Under the pieces are notes generated by a model that was not told the DNA's origin, did not search any database, and was given only the letters and a program-made list of their open reading frames with translations. Shown in pieces: positions 31,307 to 33,351 of a DNA stretch of 33,351 bases. A program made the position numbers and the translations under genes. How positions within the stretch are numbered: position 1 is the stretch's first letter; each line of letters begins with the position of its first letter. The stretch is from Treponema sp. (lineage in GTDB: Bacteria > Spirochaetota > Spirochaetia > Treponematales > Treponemataceae). The stretch lies in the NCBI RefSeq assembly GCF_024696245.1, contig NZ_JAILGZ010000050.1, positions 1 to 33,351 on the forward strand. The letters run 5' to 3'.

Positions 31307-31327
31307 AATTACCTCTAATGTGTTTGT

Positions 31328-31369
31328 AAAAAAAATATCGCATTACATTATAATGCAATGCGATATTTT
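31328..31369 (-). terminator. Long palindrome: terminator of the upstream gene, possibly also ackA promoter/operator
   Basis: Arms 31332-31344 and 31357-31369 are perfect complements of 13 bases. The 12-base centre is itself a palindrome, with one pair that is G-U on the minus strand and A-C on the plus strand. A T-run (complement of 31328-31335) follows on the minus strand, as for a terminator of the HTH-fusion gene. Only 21 bases then remain before ackA. A perfect TATAAT (minus strand) lies in the centre, with TTGTAT 17 bases upstream, so the ackA promoter may lie inside the palindrome. Confidence 0.75.
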
Positions 31370-31389
31370 ATACAATTTAGCTTTCTTTA

Positions 31390-33246
31390 TTATCCTCTTC
31401 TTAAAAAGCCGGTTTCTAAATCAATCTTTGCCCTGTCCCTCATAAGATAGTGAAGTTTTTTTCCTGTTGCAGTACACGGAATCTCTTTTATTAAAGCATA
31501 ATACCTTGGCCTTTTATATTTTGACAGCATGGGATGATTAGAACAGAAAGAAAAAAGTTCTTCTATAGTAAGGGAAGGGTCATCTGCCACAACATAAGCT
31601 GCAACAGCATGTCCCCTGATTTTGTCCGGAACAGAAGTGACAATACAGTCCTTTACTTTAGGATGCTCATTTATGGCATCTTCTATCTGACTTGGATAAA
31701 TGTTTTCTCCGCTTACAACCATCATGTCATCTTTACGGCCCCTGATAGTTACAGTCCACTTTTCATCCCAGGTACCTGTATCTCCAGTGTAGTACCAGCC
31801 CTTGTAATATCTTTCTTTTGTTACTTCATCATTTTTATAATAAGAGTAGGAAGACTTTGCAGGACTTTTAATAATGATTTCACCTTCTGTCATTCTGTCA
31901 TGGTCAACCATTTCATCAGGTTCAGCCTTTCTGTCTGTATAAATCTGAACAACCCTTACTTCATCATCTATGCAGCTGCAGCCAACTGAACCTGCACCAT
32001 CAGGTAAGTCGTAGGGACGTAAAAAAGAATTCCAGAAGGTTTCTGTTGTTCCGTAGCCGTTAAAGATATTTGGGGTAAGTGCATTGCTGTACCTGATGCA
32101 GTCAGCCCTGCTTAAAGGAGCACCCATGGTAACTATACCCTTAAGGTTTGAAATATCCAGCTTTTCTTTATCCTGGCTTCTTGTTAAAAGTTCAAGATTG
32201 GCAGGGGCACCCATAAGGAAGGTGATTTTATATTGAGAAACCCAGCTAAGGGCTGTCTGGGGTTTAAAATTCCTCATTACAACAATAGAAGCTCCTGCAT
32301 AAAAAGCCGGTCCTGGTCCTGCACAGTGACAGCCACCTCTGTGAAACCATGGTGTCATGTTAAGGGTTCTGTCCATTCTGCTTAAAGGGTACTGCATGAT
32401 TACGTCGTGGGCAGAAAGTACTTCGTTAATGTCATTTATGGGAACTGATTTTGGAAGGGCAGTAGTTCCGGAAGTACAAAGCCTTAAAACTTCGTCATAA
32501 ATGTGGGGGCGAAAGTTTATCTGAACTTCATTTTCTGACATACCCTGAGTAAAGTCTTCATAAGAAATATGGCCTTCCGGAATTTCTTCTTTTTCAAGAT
32601 TGTCTGCCATTATTACTACAGCAGGTTTGTGCTTGCAGAGTTTTACAGCTTCTGTTACGGAAGAACGGGCATTAGGTGAATAAATAATTGCCTTAGGCTG
32701 GTTGTGATCTATTAAGAGTGCCATCTCTCCTGCTGCAAGCTGAACATTTGCTGCCAGTAAAATAGCACCGGTTTTTCTTGGTCCAATATAGCTGATGGCA
32801 AAGGCTGGGCAGTTCCTTAAGACAGCCATTACCACATCATTTTTACCAATCTGATTTTTTTGAAGGGCATGGGCAAATTTATTTGCTTCTTTATTAAGCT
32901 GACTGTAGCTGTATTCAAGACCGATTTCCGGATCAAAAAGGGCAGGTGAATCAGCATATCTTCTTACATTCCTCATAAATCCGTTAAGCCAGGTATAGTC
33001 ATGTTCAAAAGTATCCCTGAACATGGAATCATCATAAGTACGGCATACTCTTTCTGCAGTATGGATTTCTCCCTTGTTCCTTATAAGACGGCCTGATTCA
33101 ACAAGCTCCTTTACATAAGTAGAAACTGTCTGTCTTGTAAGTTTGCAGTGAACTGCAAGTTCTTTAAATGAAATTGTAGGTTTGGAACTTATAGTCTGTA
33201 GTATTTTTTGCAATAAATATGATTTTTTCTGCTGTGTTAACTTCAT
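31390..33246 (-). CDS. Winged-helix DNA-binding domain fused to an acyl-CoA synthetase (ANL superfamily)
   Basis: The protein has 618 residues. Residues 1-65 form a winged helix-turn-helix (SFKELAVHCKLTRQTVSTYVKEL, 26-48) like that of BirA and similar regulators. Residues 85-618 are a complete adenylate-forming enzyme: P-loop TSGTTALPK (258-266), NGYGTTE (396-402), YTGDTG (486-491), IRGRKDDMM (501-509) and GENIYP, with A10 Lys in TATGKK (K596). The enzyme part should join a carboxylic acid to AMP and then to CoA. Chain length or aromatic specificity cannot be read. The P-loop has Ala in place of the common Gly. The ATG at 33246 has no Shine-Dalgarno, and the promoter places the RNA start at the ATG. 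Autoregulation by an acyl-adenylate-loaded protein is an inference. Confidence 0.9.
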   Translation of the reverse strand: MKLTQQKKSYLLQKILQTISSKPTISFKELAVHCKLTRQTVSTYVKELVESGRLIRNKGEIHTAERVCRTYDDSMFRDTFEHDYTWLNGFMRNVRRYADSPALFDPEIGLEYSYSQLNKEANKFAHALQKNQIGKNDVVMAVLRNCPAFAISYIGPRKTGAILLAANVQLAAGEMALLIDHNQPKAIIYSPNARSSVTEAVKLCKHKPAVVIMADNLEKEEIPEGHISYEDFTQGMSENEVQINFRPHIYDEVLRLCTSGTTALPKSVPINDINEVLSAHDVIMQYPLSRMDRTLNMTPWFHRGGCHCAGPGPAFYAGASIVVMRNFKPQTALSWVSQYKITFLMGAPANLELLTRSQDKEKLDISNLKGIVTMGAPLSRADCIRYSNALTPNIFNGYGTTETFWNSFLRPYDLPDGAGSVGCSCIDDEVRVVQIYTDRKAEPDEMVDHDRMTEGEIIIKSPAKSSYSYYKNDEVTKERYYKGWYYTGDTGTWDEKWTVTIRGRKDDMMVVSGENIYPSQIEDAINEHPKVKDCIVTSVPDKIRGHAVAAYVVADDPSLTIEELFSFCSNHPMLSKYKRPRYYALIKEIPCTATGKKLHYLMRDRAKIDLETGFLRRG

Positions 33247-33252
33247 GTGTTA

Positions 33253-33281
33253 ATATTAAATTTAAGTACATGATGTGTCAA
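33253..33281 (-). promoter_or_regulatory. Promoter of the HTH-ANL gene, predicted leaderless transcript
   Basis: On the minus strand a perfect TTGACA (33276-33281) and TAATAT (33253-33258) are 17 bases apart. Transcription should start at about 33246, the A of the ATG. A 10-bp palindrome, TTAATATTAA (33250-33259), covers the -10, and ACATCATGT lies in the spacer; either could be an operator. The remaining 33282-33351 is AT-rich with no gene seen. Confidence 0.65.
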
Positions 33282-33351
33282 TTTAAAAAGAGCTTTTGGC
33301 TGATAATAACAAGAAATGTTTGTATTAGATTATATAAAATAAAAAAAGACA

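Follow-up and report, generated by a model that had tools for sequence, protein, structure and literature searches.

The gene described here lies on the reverse strand of the window (the whole stretch of Treponema sp. DNA that was analysed, 33,351 nucleotides) and joins, in a single open reading frame, an N-terminal winged helix-turn-helix (wHTH) to a predicted enzyme of the ANL superfamily. The features of the locus, in window coordinates, are these:

31323 to 31374, reverse strand: terminator-like hairpin with U-tract between the fusion gene and ackA (dG -22.9 kcal/mol, z -6.2)
31390 to 33246, reverse strand: wHTH-ANL fusion gene, 618 amino acids, ATG start, single open reading frame (Pfam and AlphaFold2)
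31390 to 33042, reverse strand: predicted ANL acyl-activating enzyme, residues 69-618, with TSGTT-A-LPK, NGYGTTE, YTGD, GRKDD and C-terminal TGK motifs
33043 to 33246, reverse strand: predicted N-terminal wHTH and linker, residues 1-68 (HTH_24; structural model), kept in G091 and G156
33103 to 33138, reverse strand: predicted recognition helix TRQTVSTYVKEL, codons 37-48, with 9 of 12 residues invariant
33253 to 33258, reverse strand: putative -10 box TAATAT, ending 6 nt short of the start codon
33276 to 33281, reverse strand: putative -35 box TTGACA, spaced identically in the three fused genes
33307 to 33321, no strand assigned: candidate operator TAACA-AGAAA-TGTTT, matching TAACA-N5-TGTTA at 9/10 positions and found at the same position in the fused genes

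Pfam recognises three domains in the 618-residue protein: HTH_24 at residues 13-52 (E 3e-9, 36.6 bits against a cut-off of 21.9), AMP-binding at residues 91-463 (E 2e-50) and AMP-binding_C at residues 520-596 (E 1e-14), the last two in the order expected for the ANL superfamily. There is no Pfam match to a biotin protein ligase domain in this protein, and the catalytic part is of the AMP-binding/ANL type. An AlphaFold2 model of the full-length protein, for which 35 aligned relatives served as input, contains helices at residues 5-21, 27-33 and 38-50 and wing strands at 54-57 and 60-63 (an H-H-H-beta-beta arrangement with block pLDDT of 78-92), followed by a poorly predicted linker (block mean pLDDT 60 around residues 61-70) and a well-predicted ANL fold (mean pLDDT 88.5). 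An initial annotation had proposed that an HTH lies in frame with a full set of ANL motifs and that the enzyme belongs to the ANL family rather than to the biotin ligases. The single reading frame, the Pfam domains and the motifs bear this out, and the structure prediction that it had called for yields a winged helix, a linker and an ANL fold. The product may be bifunctional, an ANL acyl-adenylating enzyme with a winged helix acquired at its N-terminus in one clade.

The catalytic residues of the enzyme part are present (K266, Y398-E402, T487-D489, R504-D506 and K596), several of them invariant in 35 sequences, as are the ANL hallmarks that we checked, namely the P-loop lysine, GYGTTE, TGD, GRxxD and the C-terminal catalytic lysine. 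The P-loop (window residues 258-269) reads TSGTT-A/S-L-P-K-x-V-P in nearly the whole orthologous family, so that Ala or Ser (Ala in the window protein) stands where paralogues from the same genome and an outgroup have Gly. A PDB fold search pairs the full-length model with aryl- and acyl-CoA ligases, the best structural matches sharing 24-25% identity with it, and the ANL part is probably an acyl-adenylating enzyme that forms acyl-CoA.

Orthologues of the enzyme occur in 45 of the 200 congeneric genomes analysed (E ≤ 1e-60), and in an order-wide sample of 294 genomes all matches at E ≤ 1e-70 fall inside this genus. In only three of these 200 is the winged helix attached to the enzyme: the window genome and two further fused species, G091 (about 81% identity) and G156 (72%). 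Plain orthologues are mostly 61-72% identical over residues 69-618, and in nearly all of the 37 that we examined the initiating methionine precedes RTY(D/N)D, at window residue 69, by one to a few residues, with stop codons upstream of that methionine. No separate HTH was seen in their in-frame upstream translations, which thus give no sign of a split-gene arrangement. No relatives were found on viral contigs, and among the ten plasmid matches listed all begin at residue 68 or later. In a tree rooted at the midpoint only, with bootstrap values not fully settled, the three fused genes group together in a single clade (support 99/95). Parsimony favours a single gain of the fusion over repeated losses, which is no proof; the attachment of the winged helix, seen in a single clade of this Treponema-like genus, appears recent and stable.

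Two further matches deserve mention. One is a 63%-identical plain orthologue in a metagenome-assembled genome labelled Lachnospiraceae (L039), which may reflect lateral transfer or the mis-binning of a spirochaete contig. The other is a second, 147-bp piece of the fusion gene (L005, G000:C162, 3-149; residues 153-201, 94% in the first search), which sits where a contig ends and adjoins, in inverted orientation, a stretch that codes for DY repeats; it could be an assembly chimera, a strain variant or a truncated copy.

A spurious fusion through a mis-called start can be ruled out, since the frame is conserved in three species and the internal homologous position lacks an ATG. Nor is the fused frame a product of chance, because two other species have the same single-frame fusion and purifying selection acts on the HTH codons between the window and G091. 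HTH_24 scores above cut-off in all three fused proteins. Between the window gene and G091, dN is 0.14 and dS 2.8 for the HTH codons, and dN is 0.14 and dS 2.1 for the ANL part, dS being saturated in both; judged from these rates, selection on the HTH codons between the two is purifying. Over the first 53 residues 24 are identical between the window protein and G156, in which the wing and linker are 8 residues shorter. By sequence comparison the recognition helix is the best-kept part, with 9 of its 12 residues invariant in all three fused proteins (clustering P = 0.008). Modelled alone (pLDDT 71), the HTH resembles the wHTHs of MarR, IclR, ROK and CggR, among others (best Foldseek E 4.5e-3; VIA-align Z 8.2-10.3 against operator-binding wHTHs among others). 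The initial annotation had taken homologues without the first 65 residues and with a conserved start as a sign against the fusion. Most orthologues are indeed of this kind, without the first ~68 residues and with a conserved Met-RTYDD start, yet the fusion stands, because the fused genes form one clade at 99/95, the HTH is under selection and the promoter-proximal near-palindrome is absent from plain orthologues. We note that the nearest HTH sequences in the genus (L117, L125, L118 and L111) include C-terminal wHTHs of proteins that, from sequence features and not a profile search, we label Fic-like and AlbA-like; such domains are a possible source of the fused module.

Downstream of the fusion gene, on the same strand, lies ackA in both the window and G091; in the initial annotation the neighbouring ackA had tentatively suggested a link to short-chain acid metabolism. 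We find no support for it, given the strong terminator between the two genes in the window, the gap of about 335 bp in G091 and a different neighbour in G156, where the fusion gene adjoins aroA; the terminator hairpin and the G156 context led us to reject an operon with ackA. Next to plain orthologues in several species aroA and mraY recur (both named from their sequences and not by profile search), and we see no pathway logic in these neighbours; gene context yields no substrate.

All three fused genes share the arrangement TTGAC(A/T)-N17-A/T-rich hexamer-N6-ATG, and no Shine-Dalgarno match is seen upstream of any of them. With the end of this putative promoter only 6 nt from the start codon, the first transcribed base would fall on the ATG or beside it, and the position of the -10 box suggests that the fusion mRNA is probably leaderless. 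A -10-like hexamer close to the ATG also occurs in some plain orthologues and is not special to the fusion. Several plain orthologues (L018, L021, L023 and L025) have a TATAAT-like box very near the ATG without a Shine-Dalgarno sequence, which raises the possibility that leaderless mRNAs are widespread in the genus.

A near-palindrome, centred at about -67, sits some 25-35 bp 5' of the -35 box. The best 15-mer common to the three fused genes on either strand (TAACAAGAAATGTTT / TAACACAAAATGTTA / TAACATAAAATGTAA) has 12 of 15 bases identical and starts at -75, -74 and -76 from the ATG; 12 of 2500 Markov shuffles reach its score anywhere, and a same-position score as high as the observed 11 came up in 4 of the 2500. 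The best match to TAACA-N5-TGTTA is 9-10/10 in the three fused genes, with the window's copy in opposite orientation, and at most 8/10 in the 37 plain orthologues, a difference that is suggestive and not decisive, since the three fused genes also served to define the motif. Self-regulation through this candidate site in all three fused genes has, on these comparisons, moderate support. The initial annotation had pointed to palindromes at 33240-33290. An inverted repeat does exist there (33240-33276, over the promoter), but it is imperfect (72% complementary) and not conserved, with no counterpart seen in the upstream sequences of G091 or G156. Genome-wide counts of TAACA-N5-TGTTA do not exceed those of a reversed-pattern control, and no regulon emerges, other sites in the window genome and in G091 being mostly inside open reading frames or unshared. 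In G156, perfect TAACAAAAAATGTTA copies lie upstream of an aspartokinase-type (thrA-like) gene and of aroA (L069:1501 and L075:1323), the extra copy 5' of the divergent aroA being 178 bp away. Both copies lack a conserved counterpart in the window genome and in G091, and another regulator could therefore be the owner of the motif.

We propose that the fusion protein would dimerise, bind the upstream near-palindrome and control its own transcription, and that occupancy of the ANL site by an acid, acyl-adenylate or CoA would alter DNA binding, with movement of the ANL domains or the dimer interface as the coupling route. ANL enzymes show a ligand-coupled domain movement that has been turned into sensors (PMC10590383). 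Of the readings considered, the likeliest is autoregulation through the near-palindrome, modulated by the enzyme site; taken as a whole, we place this proposition just short of even. The broader reading, of a Group-II-like regulator of transcription that is based on an ANL enzyme, controls itself, is gated by a metabolite and arose in one genus, with enzyme-only orthologues as the surviving ancestral state, we offer tentatively, as possible but somewhat doubtful. As to the direction of control, the locus had been annotated as a possible BirA-like metabolic repressor; the architecture and the analogy hold, but 'repressor' is unsupported, the shared site being upstream of the -35 box. Since that position is at least as typical of activators, simple repression is not favoured, and the placement of the site tips the balance a little towards activation, whether or not modulated by ligand.

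The evidence for the fusion and for the candidate operator applies equally to a wHTH that binds DNA constitutively, in dimeric autoregulation, on an otherwise ordinary acyl-CoA synthetase, such that the fusion couples the amount of the protein and not its ligand state. No observation requires ligand gating, and in certain regulator-enzymes made of one polypeptide, oligomerisation is the main contribution of the enzyme domain. The large substrate-coupled movements of ANL enzymes (PMC10590383) would nevertheless make a fully independent DNA-binding domain somewhat surprising, and we consider constitutive binding unlikely. It is also conceivable that the winged helix is not regulatory but a captured module that serves in protein contacts, in localisation or in enzyme tuning: some of the Fic-like and AlbA-like C-terminal wHTHs among its closest relatives in the genus may not bind DNA, its wing is shortened in G156 and no regulon emerges. 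Such a role sits poorly with a recognition helix that is the best-conserved element and with a shared near-palindrome that accompanies the HTH, and we regard it as unlikely too, slightly more so. Finally, the near-palindrome could be the site of another regulator or a chance AT-rich match, the fusion then regulating other genes or nothing. The genome counts agree with this, as does a chance of 2.4% per sequence of a match of at least 9/10 in 105 bp, but presence at nearly the same position in 3/3 fused genes against 0/37 plain genes makes it, to our minds, very improbable.

No paper on a wHTH-ANL fusion came up in the open-access literature searched, which is not proof of absence. If the protein is gated as we propose, it would show that a direct coupling of the ANL superfamily to transcription is possible, and the fusion would be a natural template for acid sensors; the protein may turn its own gene on or off depending on the acid that it activates.

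BirA is the textbook ligase-repressor. Group II biotin ligases, such as BirA of E. coli and B. subtilis, are, with their Group I relatives, the closest working analogue and resemble the fusion in carrying an N-terminal wHTH of about 65 residues on an adenylate-forming ligase, and by analogy an acyl-adenylate might be the signal in the fusion protein. The B. subtilis protein controls three sites, and its ligase function survives removal of the HTH (PMC4016012), so a ligase with a removable N-terminal wHTH is a workable design. The fusion differs from BirA in that its enzyme is an acyl-activating member of the ANL superfamily, which means that the protein is not a member of the biotin ligases, and in its distribution, three species of a single genus being the only ones in which we found it. 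With the ANL acyl/aryl-CoA ligases (4-coumarate, 4-chlorobenzoate and FadD13-type) the fusion enzyme shares the full fold and motifs, and it differs from them in the P-loop, where they usually have G and nearly all the orthologues A or S, and in its N-terminal wHTH. Plain orthologues (e.g. G115, G165 and G114) have the same enzyme with a Met before RTYDD and lack both the wHTH and the upstream near-palindrome; their presence beside the fused proteins parallels that of Group I biotin ligases, which have no wHTH, alongside Group II. The origin of ligase-regulator hybrids has been hard to study because the split among biotin ligases is ancient. Here the gain of the DNA-binding domain is apparently recent, and enzyme-only orthologues of about 70% identity allow direct comparison. 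The fusion is best read, by analogy, as a candidate young counterpart, in another enzyme superfamily, of the division of biotin ligases into Groups I and II, and not as a BirA homologue.
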